Positions 1 to 33,561 of a DNA stretch of 64,000 nucleotides are shown here, piece after piece. The notes under the pieces are model-generated. The model was not told the origin of the DNA. It saw nothing but the letters and a program-made list of their open reading frames with translations, and ran no database searches. The stretch lies in NCBI RefSeq assembly GCF_026151205.1, contig NC_087077.1, positions 20,168,198 through 20,232,197 on the forward strand, given 5' to 3'. How positions within the stretch are numbered: position 1 is the stretch's first letter; each line of letters starts with the position of its first letter. The stretch is from Bolinopsis microptera (lineage: Eukaryota; Ctenophora; Tentaculata; Lobata; Bolinopsidae). Position numbers and translations under genes: made by a program.

Positions 1-125
1 TATTCATTGTATTGTTTCATAGTTTAGCTTTGTTTACCCTTTATTATCACGCTCGTTTCCATTGTCCAAACCCTTAATTAAATGCAAATAAACTTCGAAC
101 CGGGAAGCAAGTGTCGACTGCTTAC

Positions 126-1741
126 AATACTACAAGTAACTACTAGTTACTATAGTTACACTACTAGTTACCATAGTTACTTATATCTCCCATACTATAC
201 TACAAGTAACTACTAGTTACTATAGTTACACTACTAGTTACCATAGTTACTTATATCTCCCATACTATACTACAAGTAACTACTAGTTACTATAGTTACA
301 CTACTTGTTACCATAGTTACTTATCTCCCATACTATACTACAAGTAACTACTAGTTACTATAGTTACACTACTAGTTACCATAGTTACTTATATCTCCCA
401 TACTATACTACAAGTAACTACTAGTTACTATAGTTACACTACTAGTTACCATAGTTACTTATATCTCCCATACTATACTACAAGTAACTACTAGTTACTA
501 TAGTTACACTACTAGTTACCATAGTTACTTATATCTCCCATACTATACTACAAGTAACTACTAGTTACTATAGTTACACTACTAGTTACCATAGTTACTT
601 ATATCTCCCATACTATACTACAAGTAACTACTAGTTACTATAGTTACACTACTAGTTACCATAGTTACTTATCTCTCCCATACTATACTACAAGTAACTA
701 CTAGTTACTATAGTTACACTACTAGTTACCATAGTTACTTATATCTCCCATACTATACTACAAGTAACTACTAGTTACTATAGTTACACTACTAGTTACC
801 ATAGTTACTTATATCTCCCATACTATACTACAAGTAACTACTAGTTACTATAGTTACACTACTTGTTACCATAGTTACTTATCTCCCATACTATACTACA
901 AGTAACTACTAGTTACTATAGTTACACTACTAGTTACCATAGTTACTTATATCTCCCATACTATACTACAAGTAACTACTAGTTACTATAGTTACACTAC
1001 TAGTTACCATAGTTACTTATATCTCCCATACTATACTACAAGTAACTACTAGTTACTATAGTTACACTACTAGTTACCATAGTTACTTATATCTCCCATA
1101 CTATACTACAAGTAACTACTAGTTACTATAGTTACACTACTAGTTACCATAGTTACTTATATCTCCCATACTATACTACAAGTAACTACTAGTTACTATA
1201 GTTACACTACTAGTTACCATAGTTACTTATCTCTCCCATACTATACTACAAGTAACTACTAGTTACTATAGTTACACTACTAGTTACCATAGTTACTTAT
1301 ATCTCCCATACTATACTACAAGTAACTACTAGTTACTATAGTTACACTACTAGTTACCATAGTTACTTATATCTCCCATACTATACTACAAGTAACTACT
1401 AGTTACTATAGTTACACTACTAGTTACCATAGTTACTTATCTCTCCCATACTATACTACAAGTAACTACTAGTTACTATAGTTACACTACTAGTTACCAT
1501 AGTTACTTATATCTCCCATACTATACTACAAGTAACTACTAGTTACTATAGTTACACTACTAGTTACCATAGTTACTTATATCTCCCATACTATACTACA
1601 AGTAACTACTAGTTACTATAGTTACACTACTAGTTACCATAGTTACTTATATCTCCCATACTATACTACAAGTAACTACTAGTTACTATAGTTACACTAC
1701 TAGTTACCATAGTTACTTATATCTCCCATACTATACTACAA
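126..1741. repeat. 70-bp tandem array with 560-bp higher-order period
   Basis: About 23 head-to-tail copies of a 70-bp unit, with occasional 68-bp copies lacking an AT. Each unit carries TACAAGTAACTACTAGTTAC and GTTACCATAGTTAC, so it is rich in GTTAC/GTAAC inverted pairs. The marker variant ACTTGTTACC occurs near 303 and again near 863, and a CTCTCCCA variant occurs near 669 and 1229. Both pairs are 560 bp (8 units) apart, so an 8-unit block was duplicated as a whole. No coding potential is seen. Confidence 0.95.
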
Positions 1742-3835
1742 AGTCGGAACTAAGTCCGATCTAGGCCAGATTTTCCTTTCCGTATATTCCTGTCTCGCAA
1801 GGGACTCGTTTGTCCCAACCTTCTTCATTGACAGACAAATAGCTTCGTGTCGGTCGGCATCGTGTTGCTGTTCCCATAAAACTAGATCACTGGCTATAGT
1901 AGCTCAAAATGTAGCGTCCCGCAATATTTTCCATTTAACCAATTCTGAACTCCAATTCTAGTTAATTTTAATATATATATATCTTATATATAAGATCACA
2001 GCAAGTTTAATAAAATTAACGCGTTGCTAAGCGATTTTCTGGATGTGAAAGTGAAATGACCAATGATGAGCTAAATATGATTTTTGTCTGGAAAGATTGC
2101 CCGTGCAGTCAATTTATTGGAACCCAAGCCCTAATTTTCTGTGGCCCCACAGCTGGCAGTTCCACACGTGTCCGCTCGTTATCTTCTGATTTTAGGTCTT
2201 TAGCTAAATATAATAGGAGAGGTAATTCGATTTTACGACATTACAAAATACAGCTCTGTTCGATCGCAGTTAGGAAATGTATTCCAGATATTAATCATCC
2301 ATAATCATGATATATTTTATGGTTGCTGTTTTATTTGCTTACAATATATTAATTTTGGAGATCAGAATGTTTAACTCCAACTAACTTGGTGCCTGTTTCA
2401 TTGCTTATCGACTGTTTAACTATAAGAATTAGCATATGAGCCGGATTCTGGAAATGGGAGTGCAATGACGTGTTTTTAATAGCAGAGTGGTGCAATAATT
2501 CGTAACATTACGACACTGAAGAGTTGGTGGAGCTCCGTTAATGACAGTTGAAATACCTAGAAATACCGTTACTGATTTGATATCTTTTGAATTTGACGTA
2601 AGACTGACTGGTCAAGTTGCGGCCATTGTTACCGTTACCATGGTTACGTCAGACTGACGGGTGAAGTTGCAGCCAGTGCGGTCAAACCCAACTATTGCTC
2701 AATACTCCCGTATCTTGCCGGGTAACGCCCACTTTAGTGCGTAACAAAGTACCAACTTAGCCGAGATCCTCAGAATGGAAATACCGAGCAGAGTTATATA
2801 TAGGTTGAATCAGTCGCAACGGGTTAAGTTTTAAGGGTTATCATATTGTTGGAGGAAGCAGTCAGTAACCTTCGCCTCGCATTTCTTGCAGTCTCTGGAA
2901 GGAAGGGGGTGTCTTTTGACTCGCTATCTTTGATCTTGCTGAGGATGAAGGACCCGTATTTTTGACAGAGACCTCAGTGTGCGTGCTAGTTACCATAGTA
3001 ACACCACTTGTAGTCAGTGTGCGTGCTGAGATAGAGATTGAGCGAGGTGAGTAGAGAAGCGAGCGAGTTGCCAGATTATCTCTGAATTATCCTAGACTAG
3101 TTAACAATTTACTAAAATCTCAGACTTTAATCTACGCGAGGAATTATCTGCAAATCTGTTATAATCTTCCAGTTGCAACTGTTTCAGCTGGTGTACAACT
3201 TTACAACTTGACTGTGAGTATGTGATTGCATATTATGTATCGATCGTAATTCATTATTTCTTAGTTATTTTGATTGCGTTCTAATCATAGGTTAACGTGT
3301 TCGCTGATTCAAAAAAAATTTTAAAAATACCGATGACTTACAGAGATGTGCACGTTTCTGATGACTTACAGCTGTATACGTGCTTTTGCATAGGAAATAT
3401 TATTAGTTCAAGCTTTTAAAAAGTAATTTCATCTCCAGGTTGATGTGGAATGTGTGTTACTATCAATGATAATGTAACGTTCTAACGTTATGAGAGGTAA
3501 CTGTAAATTACAATTCAGGCTTGATTACTTTTCAGTGCACTTTTTTGATGAGGACCTGTGTAATTCCTAGGGGCACCTAAAATGTGAAGTATAAAATGTT
3601 TGCTTCGTAAAGTATCTTTGTAAATTTTAACATCAATAAATGTGTTAAAAATCACATTTCGTGCGTCATCTACGCGTTTCAATGAATAAAAGAATAAACA
3701 TTTTGTTGCCGATATGTGTGTTTGTCAGCTTTGTGATATAGTCTAGAAATTATAGTATCAGCTCTGTCATGGAGACTAGAAATAGCAGTTGCAGAGTCAA
3801 CTTATAGCGGCGAGCAGGGTCATAACTTATAATAA
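1742..3835. other. Unique AT-rich DNA, no gene recognised
   Basis: No convincing exon. An 82-codon open frame at 2056-2304 has no recognisable domain and no splice or poly-A context. A perfect X-box-like palindrome GTTACCATGGTTAC lies at 2634-2647, between two copies of a roughly 25-bp segment beginning AGACTGAC. A GTTACCATAGTAAC variant is near 2989, and an AATAAA lies at 3635-3640. Confidence 0.6.
2634..2647. promoter_or_regulatory. Solo X-box-like palindrome
   Basis: GTTACCATGGTTAC fits the RFX-type X-box pattern GTNRCC, short spacer, GGYNAC. It is an isolated copy outside any array. Binding is inferred from the motif only. Confidence 0.4.
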
Positions 3836-6142: not shown

Positions 6143-6666
6143 CTCTGCCGTGTTGTATGTGACCCTCTCAGCTCTTCGTATGTGACCCGCCCTTGACTCT
6201 CTATCCTTCACAATAGCATTGAGCATATATTTCACAAACTGATTGTAACTCATCATTAGTAACTAATCAGATAACCTAAGTTTTTTAGAGCGCACCGAGA
6301 AGCTACAAGAACAGAGCTTGTTGTACTTGTACACAGGTAAGAAGGATGAGTGTCATTATAATGAAATCAGATACCTCACTTTGACCTCTACTTTTTAGTT
6401 AGATACCTCACTAGTAGAGACGAAGGTAAATACTCCTTCGTAAATACTCCCAGGCAATAGTTAGGTACCTGCCGTGTCTTCGTGCTATCCTCAATCCTCA
6501 TGTATATCATCCTCATTATATCGATCAGTACATTTATGCTAGACTATTTTCTGTAGAGTGTTTTTACTGTACTACATTATAACAGACTGTATTATAGTAA
6601 ACTTGGTTTGTTGATGACCCGAATACTTTCTACTAGCCAACTGTAACCGTAATTCAATACAGTTCA
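6143..6666. other. Unique spacer
   Basis: AT-rich DNA between arrays, with short local duplications such as AGATACCTCACT (two copies near 6370-6412). No gene or known element is recognised. Confidence 0.5.
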
Positions 6667-6908
6667 GACAACTTCTAGAACCACGGGACGCTACCAGTAC
6701 CTCACGACGACACGACAGACAACTTTTAGAACCACGGGACGCTACCAGTACCTCACGACGACACGACAGACAACTTCTAGAACCACGGGACACTACCAGT
6801 ACCTCACGACGACACGACAGACAACTTCTAGAACCACGGGACGCTACCAGTACCTCACGACGACACGACAGACAACTTCTAGAACCACGGGACGCTACCA
6901 GTACCTCC
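6667..6908. repeat. 51-bp tandem array, about 5 copies
   Basis: The unit starts GACAACTTCTAGAACCACGG and includes ACCAGTACCTCACGACGACA. The fifth copy is truncated. Because 51 is a multiple of three, a short minus-strand open frame results. It has no recognisable domain. Confidence 0.9.
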
Positions 6909-27671: not shown

Positions 27672-30600
27672 ATGCAGCCGCTAATACCAGCTGAGAAGCG
27701 TATAAAGGTAGCGGACACACTCCGGCTACTATTTCACTACTGTAACATAGTAAACCTGACACTGGGACTAATAGTGTTCGGGGTGGGGGTGTCACTAGTT
27801 CTCTCCCCTCTACCTCTCCCTGCTGGCAAAGATGTAAGTAGTGTAACTATAGTAACTAATAGTGTTTGGGGTGGGGGTGTCACTAGTTCTCTCCCCTCTA
27901 CCTCTCCCTGCTGGCAAAGATGTAAGTAGTGTAACTATGGTAACTAGTAGTGTAACTATGGTAACTAGTAGTGTAACTATGGTAACTAATAGTGTTCGGG
28001 GTGGGGGTGTCACTAGTTCTCTCTCCTCTACCTCTCCCTGCTGGCAAAGATGTAAGTAGTGTAACTATGGTAACTAGTAGTGTAACTATGGTAAATAGTA
28101 GTGTAACTATGGTAACTAGTAGTGTAACTATGGTAACTAGAAGTGTAACTATGGTAACTAGTAGTGTAACTATGGTAACTAATAGTGTTCGGGGTGGGGG
28201 TGTCACTAGTTCTCTCTCCTCTACCTCTCCCTGCTGGCAAAGATGTAAGTAGTGTAACTATGGTAACTAGTAGTGTAACTATGGTAAATAGTAGTGTAAC
28301 TATGGTAACTAGTAGTGTAACTATGGTAACTAATAGTGTTCGGGGTGGGGGTGTCACTAGTTCTCTCCCCTCTACCTCTCCCTGCTGGCAAAGATGTAAG
28401 TAATGTAACTATGGTAACTAGAAGTGTAACTATGGTAACTAGTAGTGTAACTATGGTAACTAATAGTGTTCGGGGTGGGGGTGTCACTAGTTCTCTCCCC
28501 TCTACTTCTCCCTGCTGGCAAAGATGTAAGTAGTGTAACTATGGTAACTAGTAGTGTAACTATGGTAACTAGTAGTGTAACTGTGGTAACTAATAGTGTT
28601 CGGGGTGGGGGTGTCACTAGTTCTCTCCCCTCTACCTCTCCCTGCTGGCAAAGATGTAAGTAATGTAACTATGGTAACTAGAAGTGTAACTATGGTAACT
28701 AGTAGTGTAACTATGGTAACTAATAGTGTTCGGGGTGGGGGTGTCACTAGTTCTCTCCCCTCTACTTCTCCCTGCTGGCAAAGATGTAAGTAGTGTAACT
28801 ATGGTAACTAGTAGTGTAACTATGGTAACTAGTAGTGTAACTATGGTAACTAATAGTGTTCGGGGTGGGGGTGTCACTAGTTCTCTCCCCTCTACCTCTC
28901 CCTGCTGGCAAAGATGTAAGTAATGTAACTATGGTAACTAGAAGTGTAACTATGGTAACTAGTAGTGTTTGGGGTGGGGGTGTCACTAGTTCTCTCCCCT
29001 CTACCTCTCCCTGCTGGCAAAGATGTAAGTAGTGTAACTATGGTAACTAGTAGTGTAACTATGGTAACTAGTAGTGTAACTATAGTAACTAATAGTGTTT
29101 GGGGTGGGGGTGTCACTAGTTCTCTCCCCTCTACCTCTCCCTGCTGGCAAAGATGTAAGTAGTGTAACTATGGTAACTAGTAGTGTAACTATGGTAACTA
29201 GTAGTGTAACTATGGCAACTAATAGTGTTCGGGGTGGGGGTGTCACTAGTTCTCTCCCCTCTACCTCTCCCTGCTGGCAAAGATGTAAGTAGTGTAACTA
29301 TGGTAACTAGTAGTGTAACTATGGTAACTAGTAGTGTAACTTTGGTAACTAATAGTGTTCGGGGTGGGGGTGTCACTAGTTCTCTCCCCTCTACTTCTCC
29401 CTGCTGGCAAAGATGTAAGTACAGTTAATGTTGCAAATTTTGATATTCTGTAAGTTGGTCCCAATTAGACACAAACTTTCGACATTTTACCGTCCTCAAG
29501 ATTTTTTAAATTTTAATACTCTGTAGCGAATTGGTTTGTTTGAACCTTTTTCGAAGAAAAAGACATTATTCTAAGCAAACAGTCAACAAATTCTTCTCAA
29601 AGTGTTATAGTATTTATATTTGTGCTGTGTTACCATGGTTACAGTACTGTGTTCTCATTGTGCCCTTATAATCTACATGTTTATCTGCGATAGCTGATAA
29701 CAGTAAATAGAACGGGTCGTCTGTCCAGCTACTTACAGATTAGAAGTTAAGATTACGTAATAAGAATAACTAACATAATATGTCATATATATGTTATTAT
29801 GTGCTAACATTACTAATAATAACGAGCTAATCCTATTCTCTCAGATCTCTGTAATCTACGGAACTTTACTGATATCAGCAGTTATAGTGATACTAGTGGT
29901 GAGTAGTAGGATATTATTAGTAATATATTACATAAATTACTAAGTAGTAGGATATTATTAGTAATATATTACATAAATTACTAAGTAGTAGGATATTATT
30001 AGTAATATATTACATAAATTACTAAGTAGTAGGATATTATTAGTAATATATTACATAAATTACTAAGTAGTAGGATATTATTAGTAATATATTACATAAA
30101 TTACTAAGTAGTAGGATATTATTAGTAATATATTACATAAATTACTAAGTAGTAGGATATTGTAAAATCCGGATTGGAGTATTATTTATGAGTCGCATTG
30201 TTGTAATGTATTCTGGGTAAAATTATCTTTATCCCGGTTGTTGCGACAAGTAAAAATGCTCTTATTAGGGAAAGGAGATTACTCGACGTTTCAATGTAAC
30301 TACATCGTATTCATGATCTAAAAACAAGTGTTAAAAATTCAAAACGTAAAAAACATATATCTGAGGCAAAATTTGTGTACATTAATTTATTTTTAATCAA
30401 TCAACTTTATCCAAAAATTCGATACAAAAAAGTCATAACAAAATAGTAGGATATTATTAGTAATATGTTACATAAATTACTAAGTAGTAGGATATTATTA
30501 GTAATATATTACATAAATTACTAAGTAGTAGGATATTATTAGTAATATATTACATAAATTACTAAGTAGTAGGATATTATTAGTAATATATTACATAAAT

Positions 30601-33561
30601 TACTAAGTAGTAGGATATTATTAGTAATATATTACATAAATTACTAAGTAGTAGGATATTATTAGTAATATATTACATAAATTACTAAGTAGTAGGATAT
30701 TATTAGTAATATATTACATAAATTACTAAGTAGTAGGATATTATTAGTAATATATTACATAAATTACTAAGTAGTAGGATATTATTAGTAATATATTACA
30801 TAAATTACTAAATAGTAGGATATTATTAGTAATATATTACATAAATTACTAAGTAGTAGGATATTATTAGTAATATATTACATAAATTACTAAGTAGTAG
30901 GATATTATTAGTAATATATTACATAAATTACTAAGTAGTAGGATATTATTAGTAATATATTACATAAATTACTAAGTAGTAGGATATTATTAGTAATATA
31001 TTACATAAATTACTAAGTAGTAGGATATTATTAGTAATATATTACATAAATTACTAAGTAGTAGGATATTATTAGTAATATATTACATAAATTACTAAGT
31101 AGTAGGATATTATTAGTAATATATTACATAAATTACTAAGTAGTAGGATATTATTAGTAATATATTACATAAATTACTAAGTAGTAGGATATTATTAGTA
31201 ATATATTACATAAATTACTAAGTAGTAGGATATTATTAGTAATATATTACATAAATTACTAAGTAGTAGGATATTATTAGTAATATATTACATAAATTAC
31301 TAAGTAGTAGGATATTGTAAAATCCGGATTGGAGTATTATTTATGAGTCGCATTGTTGTAATGTATTCTGGGTAAAATTATCTTTATCCCGGTTGTTGCG
31401 ACAAGTAAAAATGCTCTTATTAGGGAAAGGAGATTACTCGACGTTTCAATGTAACTACATCGTATTCATGATCTAAAAACAAGTGTTAAAAATTCAAAAC
31501 GTAAAAAACATATATCTGAGGCAAAATTTGTGTACATTAATTTATTTTTAATCAATCAACTTTATCCAAAAATTCGATACAAAAAAGTCATAACAAAATA
31601 GTAGGATATTATTAGTAATATGTTACATAAATTACTAAGTAGTAGGATATTATTAGTAATATATTACATAAATTACTAAGTAGTAGGATATTATTAGTAA
31701 TATATTACATAAATTACTAAGTAGTAGGATATTATTAGTAATATATTACATAAATTACTAAGTAGTAGAATATTATTAGTAATATATTACATAAATTACT
31801 AAGTAGTAGGATATTATTAGTAATATATTACATAAATTACTAAGTAGTAGGATATTATTAGTAATATATTACATAAATTACTAAGTAGTAGGATATTATT
31901 AGTAATATATTACATAAATTACTAAGTAGTAGGATATTATTAGTAATATATTACATAAATTACTAAGTAGTAGGATATTATTAGTAATATATTACATAAA
32001 TTACTAAGTAGTAGGATATTATTAGTAATATATTACATAAATTACTAAGTAGTAGGATATTATTAGTAATATATTACATAAATTACTAAGTAGTAGGATA
32101 TTATTAGTAATATATTACATAAATTACTAAGTAGTAGGATATTATTAGTAATATATTACATAAATTACTAAGTAGTAGGATATTATTAGTAATATATTAC
32201 ATAAATTACTAAGTAATAGCATATTATTAGTAATATATTACATAAATTACTAAGTAGTAGGATATTATTAGTAATATATTACATAAATTACTAAGTAGTA
32301 GGATATTATTAGTAATATATTACATAAATTACTAAGTAGTAGGATATTATTAGTAATATATTACATAAATTACTAAGTAGTAGGATATTATCAGTCATAT
32401 ATTACATAAATTACTAAGTAGTAGGATATTATTAGTAATATATTACATAAATTACTAAGTAGTAGGATATTATTAGTAATATATTACATAAATTACTAAG
32501 TAGTAGGATATTATTAGTAATATATTACATAAATTACTAAGTAGTAGGATATTATTAGTAATATATTACATAAATTACTAATGGTGAGTTCACAAGACAG
32601 CTGGTACAGTTACAATTCCGGTTGGAACTTTGCCAACTTGGTGGCAAACATAGTTTCCTTTAGAAGAAGGTCTTCATTAGCCACTCCTCCTGATCAGGGA
32701 CAAAAGGAAATCGCGGCATGTGTGGAATCGCGATTTTCCCCATTATTTGCGACAAATTTTATGTATAGTCTTATGTATAGTCTGTTAAAAATCGCGGTAT
32801 CGCGATTTTTGGGCATAATAATTGCGATTTTCTTTTGTCCCCGCTCCTGATCAATGAGGGATATAAAATCTTTGTAACTTAAAAGCTTTCAATCACATTA
32901 CTTCACACTAAACCCTTACTCCTTCATAAACTTCAACATATTTCAGGGCATGCTGGGTATTCACGGCTGCTACTGGGTTCAAGAAAACAGACTGAAACTC
33001 TACGCTGTCTCCACGATAGCAGCTATTGTGTTAGAAGCAGGGCTCGGATCCATGGCCATTATAAAGGAGCAGTCCATCATGGACCACATAGACTCGACCC
33101 TGGAGAACTTCAGAAGCATGAACAGTAACCATAGTAACATGCCTTTACGGGAGTACAGACAGTCTCAGTACGATACTAACGCTACCTACAAGAACATTGT
33201 GGATAACGTGCACACAGAGCTATCCTGCTGCTCCTTTATAAATATTAGCAATAACATCAGCTCCTGTCACCACCGTATCAGTGGTACACCTCTACCAGGC
33301 TGTGTGGAAACCTTCAGGGACTTTATCAATATCAAGCTAACTTACATACGGTGTTTAGCATTCATGTTGGTTCCTATCCAGTTGTTCTGTTTAGGGTTTG
33401 ATCTGATGGTTCTGAAGACACTGCAGGTTACTAAGGAGTACGATAAGTTGGAGAGGGAACTGAGTAATAGAAAGAGGGAGAAGAGGAACAGTATGGGGTA
33501 CACTACTATTGGGGATGTGGAGAACATTAACCTACAGGCTGCGTACAATAGAGTGGTGTAA
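27672..33561 (+). CDS. Tetraspanin family membrane protein, 3 coding exons, 276 aa
   Basis: Exons: 27672-27833, 29845-29898 and 32947-33561, all joined in phase 0. Donors GTAAGT (27834) and GTGAGT (29899); acceptors TCTCTCAG (to 29844) and ATTTCAG (to 32946). Tetraspanins organise membrane protein complexes at the cell surface and in vesicles. Four membrane spans are visible: residues about 24-48, 55-78, 89-111 and 203-229. After span 2 comes the family signature GIHGC...QEN (residues 76-86). The large outer loop has four cysteines, CC at 166-167, C179 and C191; the usual CCG reads CCS here. N-glycosylation sites occur in the loop (NAT at 150, NIS at 171 and 175). The tail is basic (RKREKR). 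Length is normal for the family. The first ATG is used; further upstream coding exons are not excluded. Both introns are filled by satellites. Confidence 0.9.
27750..29425 (+). repeat. 130-bp array that duplicates the exon 1 end and its splice donor
   Basis: The unit holds about 65 bp of exon 1 (GTTCGGGGTGGGGGTGTCAC through CTGGCAAAGAT), the donor GTAAGTA, then copies of a 21-bp subrepeat, AGTGTAACTATGGTAACTAG. Counting the true exon end at 27833, GATGTAAGTA appears 13 times. The GAT ends at 27833, 27921, 28051, 28244, 28395, 28525 and then mostly every 130 bp to about 29415. Spacings of 88, 130, 151 and 193 bp differ by multiples of the 21-bp subrepeat. Reading through from exon 1 hits a stop inside the first copy, so the downstream copies act as intron if the first donor is used. 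Confidence 0.95.
29426..29844 (+). other. Unique 3' part of tetraspanin intron 1
   Basis: AT-rich intron sequence with a solo GTTACCATGGTTAC at 29629-29642, ending in the acceptor TCTCTCAG at 29844. Confidence 0.7.
30161..30445. mobile_element. Insert of unknown nature within the satellite, copy 1
   Basis: 285 bp starting TGTAAAATCCGGATTGGAGT and ending AAAAAAGTCATAACAAAA. It has no terminal inverted repeat, no poly-A tail and no coding. Both edges sit in the satellite motif TAGTAGGATAT. It could be a transposon fragment or captured unique DNA. Confidence 0.4.
31316..31600. mobile_element. Insert within the satellite, copy 2
   Basis: Apparently identical to 30161-30445, with the same edges and the same variant satellite unit after it. 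It therefore arose by duplication of the array block rather than by a second insertion. Confidence 0.4.
32695..32843 (-). mobile_element. hAT-like MITE, 149 bp, inside tetraspanin intron 2
   Basis: Starts CAGGGACAAAAGGAAATCGC and ends in the inverse, TTTTCTTTTGTCCCCG. It is flanked by a perfect 8-bp target-site duplication CTCCTGAT (32687-32694 and 32844-32851). The interior has further inverted matches (AATCGCGATTTT). Length, ends and interior match the copy at 39861-40009 in opposite orientation. No transposase is present, so it is non-autonomous. An 8-bp duplication plus CAGGG ends is typical of the hAT superfamily. Confidence 0.88.

Follow-up and report, generated by a model that had tools for sequence, protein, structure and literature searches.

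An exon whose end, together with its splice donor, recurs thirteen times raises the question of how the gene that carries it could still yield its protein, and of whether the repetition regulates that gene. We addressed this for a tetraspanin gene of the ctenophore Bolinopsis microptera, which lies in the window (the whole stretch of 64,000 nucleotides analysed) and which the initial annotation had singled out as an exon-intron boundary amplified into a minisatellite.

The gene has three coding exons, all on the plus strand. The coding part of exon 1 (27672..27833) is an open stretch of 54 codons in phase 0, the acceptor of intron 1 (ctcag) lies at 29840..29844, exon 2 (29845..29898) contributes 18 codons in phase 0 and holds the start of TM2, and exon 3 (32947..33561) contributes 204 codons and the stop. 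The reading frames are intact in all three exons, which join in phase 0 across canonical GT..AG introns. The joined product of 276 aa matches PF00335 over residues 19-227 (56.9 bits, E 3.1e-15, profile 3-222 of 225), hence it belongs to this family, with a score above the curated cut-off of 32.1 bits and most of the protein covered. This match bears out both the amplified boundary as that of a tetraspanin gene and the placement of the exon 1 end at 27833. Exon 1 alone gave no Pfam match, the genome-wide PF00335 search returned a weaker match at exon 3 of the locus (34.4 bits), and a sequence search with the 276-aa protein found no PDB relative at E up to 1.

Further, the starts of eight paralogous tetraspanin exons were read by eye. 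Six of them (L005, L007, L018, L020, L022 and L023) have an AG acceptor shortly before TM2, as does intron 1 here, although the exact acceptor positions and phases differ from those of the host gene. L021 starts at a GLLGCCG motif, near the intron 2 site of the host gene and in another phase, and L025 is a near copy of L020. Intron 1 of the host gene sits in the small extracellular loop, the region that took 46% of new animal introns according to excerpts of a survey of tetraspanin introns (PMC2650405).

The donor motif GATGTAAGTA is found in 13 exact copies between 27831 and 29412, each with a near-identical copy of the exon 1 end ahead of it (starts at 27831, 27919, 28049, 28242, 28393, 28523, 28653, 28783, 28913, 29022, 29152, 29282 and 29412). 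The 22-mer CCTGCTGGCAAAGATGTAAGTA has 13 matches in the 264.65-Mb genome, all at the tetraspanin locus, and its reversed pattern, used as a control, has 0 in the whole genome, which excludes chance. A repeat unit containing the end of exon 1 and its donor, with about 65 bp of coding sequence, had thus been correctly recognised; the coding part is the terminal 67 bp of exon 1. The unit length of 130 bp given with it did not hold, as the period is not fixed: each unit joins an exon part of 67 bp to a linker of n x 21 bp, with n from 1 to 6 (in order 1, 3, 6, 4, 3, 3, 3, 3, 2, 3, 3, 3), so that the donors are spaced by 88, 130, 193, 151, 130, 130, 130, 130, 109, 130, 130 and 130 bp. This variation of unit length within the array is suggestive of possible length instability between alleles or in the soma.

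The genuine copy of the amplified segment occupies 27767..27833 (plus strand, as are the other features of the array) and leads into donor 1 at 27831..27840, GAT/GTAAGTA with the cut after GAT. Judged by sequence, this first copy alone adjoins unique exon 1 upstream, and its donor is the sole one predicted to give the full-length protein. The 12 further units (27834..29414; 88-193 bp each) end in donors 2-13, and donor 13 (29412..29421) is followed by intron sequence beyond the array. From -60 to +7 around the donor, 3 of 67 positions vary among the 13 copies, all of them C/T (10:3, 11:2 and 10:3), and the donor itself is invariant; a fourth variable site, private to copy 10, falls among the seven exon bases that precede this stretch. 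We considered whether the copies could be repeated exons with acceptors of their own and rejected this, as each of the 12 opens directly after an in-frame stop (in copy 12 the stop, read in the frame of the exon, lies 12 nt further upstream than in the others). No pyrimidine tract before the exon copies was seen by eye in the array sequence.

The two parts of the unit differ in their distribution over the genome. Exact matches to the linker 21-mer AGTAGTGTAACTATGGTAACT number 1,322 (632 forward, 690 reverse), and among the matches listed many lie in tandem; it is a minisatellite motif found genome-wide. Within the window, the reverse complement of a 70-bp minisatellite at 123..1741 (minus strand) holds the same motif, its consensus being read by eye. 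The chimeric junction between donor and 21-mer, GTAAGTAGTGTAACTAT, has 9 genome matches and the exon string ACTAATAGTGTTYGGGGTGGGGG has 12, all at the tetraspanin locus. The start of the exon part of the repeat, ACTAATAGTGT, agrees with the linker sequence ACTAGTAGTGT at 10 of 11 bases. The only unit with n = 2 (109 bp, 28916..29024, plus strand) carries a hybrid linker/exon junction, ACTAGTAGTGTTTGG in place of ACTAATAGTGTT. This hybrid suggests a crossover between 21-mer and exon, and it could also be a single A-to-G change; taken together with the likeness of the two sequences, it would fit unequal exchange between them.

To see how the copies have diverged, the last 60 bases of the 12 exon copies were compared with the genuine exon (8 of 720 sites differ) and the 37 full linker 21-mers with their own consensus (14 of 777); it should be noted that 4-base linker remnants, including the hybrid site, are left out of these counts. 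The comparison gives no sign of selection on the exon copies, which are about as conserved as the linker, hence recent amplification suffices. The initial remark that the intron copies are as conserved as the exon is accurate and says little beside the linker figures, while the recent amplification or homogenisation drawn from it is supported. From its sequence the array looks recent, its coding string carrying no extra conservation.

The consequences of donor choice were followed in the reading frames. From donor 1 the intact tetraspanin of 276 aa results. With donor 2 the message gains 88 nt, which hold no stop before exon 2, and the frameshift product of 161 aa ends in exon 3. With donors 3-13 the stop always falls at codon 85, which leaves 176-1,539 nt to the last exon junction; a stop so far ahead of it usually invites nonsense-mediated decay. 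Thus 11 of the 13 choices end early, ahead of an exon junction, and the frameshifted stretch with a stop that had been expected from all downstream donors applies to donors 3-13 and not to donor 2. RNA structure does not seem to single out donor 1. In a local fold at one setting its openness ranked 11th of 13 (unpaired 0.011; range over the 13 donors 0.006-0.161), and three folded stretches scored no better than shuffled versions of themselves (z -0.40, 0.29 and -0.04), so this candidate was discarded. As the donors are identical in sequence and the fold does not favour the first, the choice of donor 1 would have to be positional, or visible only after decay.

Comparable arrays have been described in lancelets. 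According to excerpts of two reports (PMC3087553, PMC3902484), amphioxus mirages are tandem repeats across exon-intron borders in Adh3, TnC and the globins BflGb6 and BflGb9, with which the imperfect repeats of PGBD5 are compared; RT-PCR products are regular and splicing is reported as undisturbed, and somatic length instability is reported for the Adh3 mirage. Like these, the array unit here spans the exon-intron boundary (67 bp of exon end, donor and 21n linker), and the copies lie in the intron with the genuine border, by sequence, at one edge of the array. Unlike them, it has 13 donors and a composite unit of exon and genome-wide 21-mer. On these features the tetraspanin array fits the anatomical definition of a mirage minisatellite. 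In human genes of segmental duplications, as far as excerpts of the report go, internal tandem repeats occur at exon-intron boundaries, and paralogues differ, some repeats becoming new introns or staying in the exon (PMC2812944). The expansion of a minisatellite across an exon border is shared with these human cases, whereas the tetraspanin copies lie inside the intron and their retention would break the frame. Splice signals are also multiplied when introns are gained by tandem duplication of a segment bearing a splice site, but here an existing donor has been multiplied, with no sign of a new intron. In the literature searched, exon-border arrays were reported only for lancelets and human paralogues.

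Within the present genome the tetraspanin array is not alone. We scanned 97 Pfam-matched exon intervals outside the window for arrays at their borders, comprising 32 of 36 tetraspanin matches (the match in the window and three others left out), 13 of 19 Piwi/Argonaute matches (without the five that had search loci to themselves and one lying outside the retrieved sequence) and 52 of 73 myosin-head matches; part of these intervals contain stops and hence bridge introns. Border arrays were found in 2 of the 97 intervals, at three borders that all belong to one Argonaute-like gene on another contig (L039; C9:3776000-3784830, minus strand). Array (a), at an acceptor, is built of 49-bp units. Tandem Repeats Finder counts 44.7 of them, and GCAG/GTACAAACAGACCTTGCCACTACAC (cut after GCAG) occurs 39 times without mismatch, the genuine border included; among five extra copies examined, three run into a stop within 20 codons and two do not. 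Array (b), at the donor of the same exon (exon A), has four copies of 38 bp, three with CCAG/GTAG and one with CCAA/GTAG. Array (c), at the acceptor of another exon, has three copies of 69 bp, and both extra copies read into a stop. Arrays thus affect both kinds of border in this gene, acceptors twice and a donor once. In the paralogues L038 and L040, exon A has these same borders and is free of overlapping arrays, hence arrays (a) and (b) grew on an existing exon. The only paralogous exon read for array (c) has a match that begins further upstream and does not confirm the border.

Five other candidates (at L005, L021, L043, L044 and L045) were dismissed on reading, as no exon copy lies within their arrays. 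Two of them (L044:4390 and L043:5984), both in myosin genes, start directly at a donor or a site resembling one, with the exon not copied; the start is at the donor itself in L044 and possibly also in L043. At L045 a long AAGTAACC-type repeat in the intron ahead of a myosin exon (exon reverse-complement 6636-6827) nearly reaches its acceptor, again with the exon not copied. L043 also holds a tandem-duplicated myosin-head exon (2785-2910 and 3067-3192, 79% identity), possibly a pair of mutually exclusive exons. Of two Piwi domains compared with PDB chains, L011 is closest to those named Piwi/Piwi-A (7yfq, 7kx7; the latter a sponge protein) and L013 to one named Piwi-like protein 1 (9s0z), so the two give no consistent indication of affinity. 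A search for COX1 found no match, and an 18S piece was recovered that reads sponge-like, a likeness that falls short of proof. Further, of 161 homeodomain candidates 150 were scored, giving 111 matches, among which no Hox-like cluster of many genes was seen by eye. Mainly on this ground and on assembly size (amphioxus assemblies are near 500 Mb), a cephalochordate source is judged unlikely.

The surroundings of the array are rich in repeats. A 41-bp minisatellite fills most of intron 2 (29902..32581, plus strand), its unit holding no copy of exon 2; it starts at intron position +4, comparable to the 21-mer in intron 1, and its stretch at 30166 is repeated 1,155 bp on, at 31321. In the window, 42% of the sequence belongs to tandem arrays with at least three copies, whose units are of many kinds. 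In a sample of 123,588 bases that leaves out the myosin loci, arrays with a period of at least 10 account for 7.9%; the array criteria behind the two figures differ. On its contig of 20.9 Mb, the window is some 0.7 Mb away from the end.

The anatomy of the array, the reading frames, the uniqueness of the chimera to this locus, the lack of extra conservation and the recurrence at other exon borders are direct observations, and from these we infer a probable course of events. A 21-bp motif spread as minisatellites over the genome would have come to adjoin the exon 1 donor on its intron side, and its likeness to the exon may have allowed unequal exchange or slippage between the two. Such exchange would have amplified the whole interval, with its 67 bp of exon sequence, its donor and n copies of the 21-mer, leaving the genuine exon end as the first copy and the other 12 in the intron. 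Splicing from donor 1 would give the protein, and use of donors 3-13 would add a stop and expose the transcript to nonsense-mediated decay; with those products removed, the array could be tolerated. We thus consider it quite probable that this is a mirage-type minisatellite grown on an existing splice site, with donor 1 functional and the 12 other donors either lost with the intron or eliminated through decay. Most likely it is a tolerated side effect of minisatellites spreading in a region rich in repeats. Against this reading count the small number of sampled genes with border arrays, one besides this gene, and the preference in mammals, given below, for the donor closer to the acceptor.

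If the 13 donors instead compete and most choices end in decay, the number of copies could set the level of tetraspanin. The donors being identical, any choice among them is indeed positional, and the preponderance of early stops suits such a scheme. Selection has left no sign on the copies, though, and amphioxus mirages are reported, in excerpts of the two studies (PMC3087553, PMC3902484), not to disturb the mRNA, which makes this reading improbable. Nothing that we found supports the proposal of the initial annotation that donor choice could tune expression by copy number: few of the 67 positions vary, the donor is invariant, donor 1 is not the most open in the local fold, and published mirages are reported to splice regularly.

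Less probable still is that the true array is much shorter and that the assembly has expanded or collapsed it. Tandem arrays are prone to error and this one is known from one assembly; against this stand units of different length (88-193 bp) with shared variants in a higher-order pattern, and similar arrays elsewhere in the genome. We hold it equally hard to credit that the gene is dead or nearly so, with exon 1 intact only recently. When two identical donors compete in mammals, splicing often prefers the donor closer to the acceptor, a preference that would predict use of donor 13 and a poorly expressed gene. The intact frames of all three exons argue against this, and the Argonaute-like gene would need to tolerate its arrays too.

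The value of the array is that of a natural test of positional splice-site choice. In a ladder of identical donors, ordinary RNA data would show the choice between first and last among equal sites, with no need for constructs. It is a doubtful, more far-reaching speculation that the recurrent exon-border arrays of this genome form a natural splice-competition series (13 or about 40 signals) in which position picks the winner, decay scores most mistakes and copy number is a possible heritable dial of expression. Since an Argonaute-like gene carries border arrays as well, such arrays may be more widely distributed than the lancelet and human reports imply, and may offer a route to intron change.
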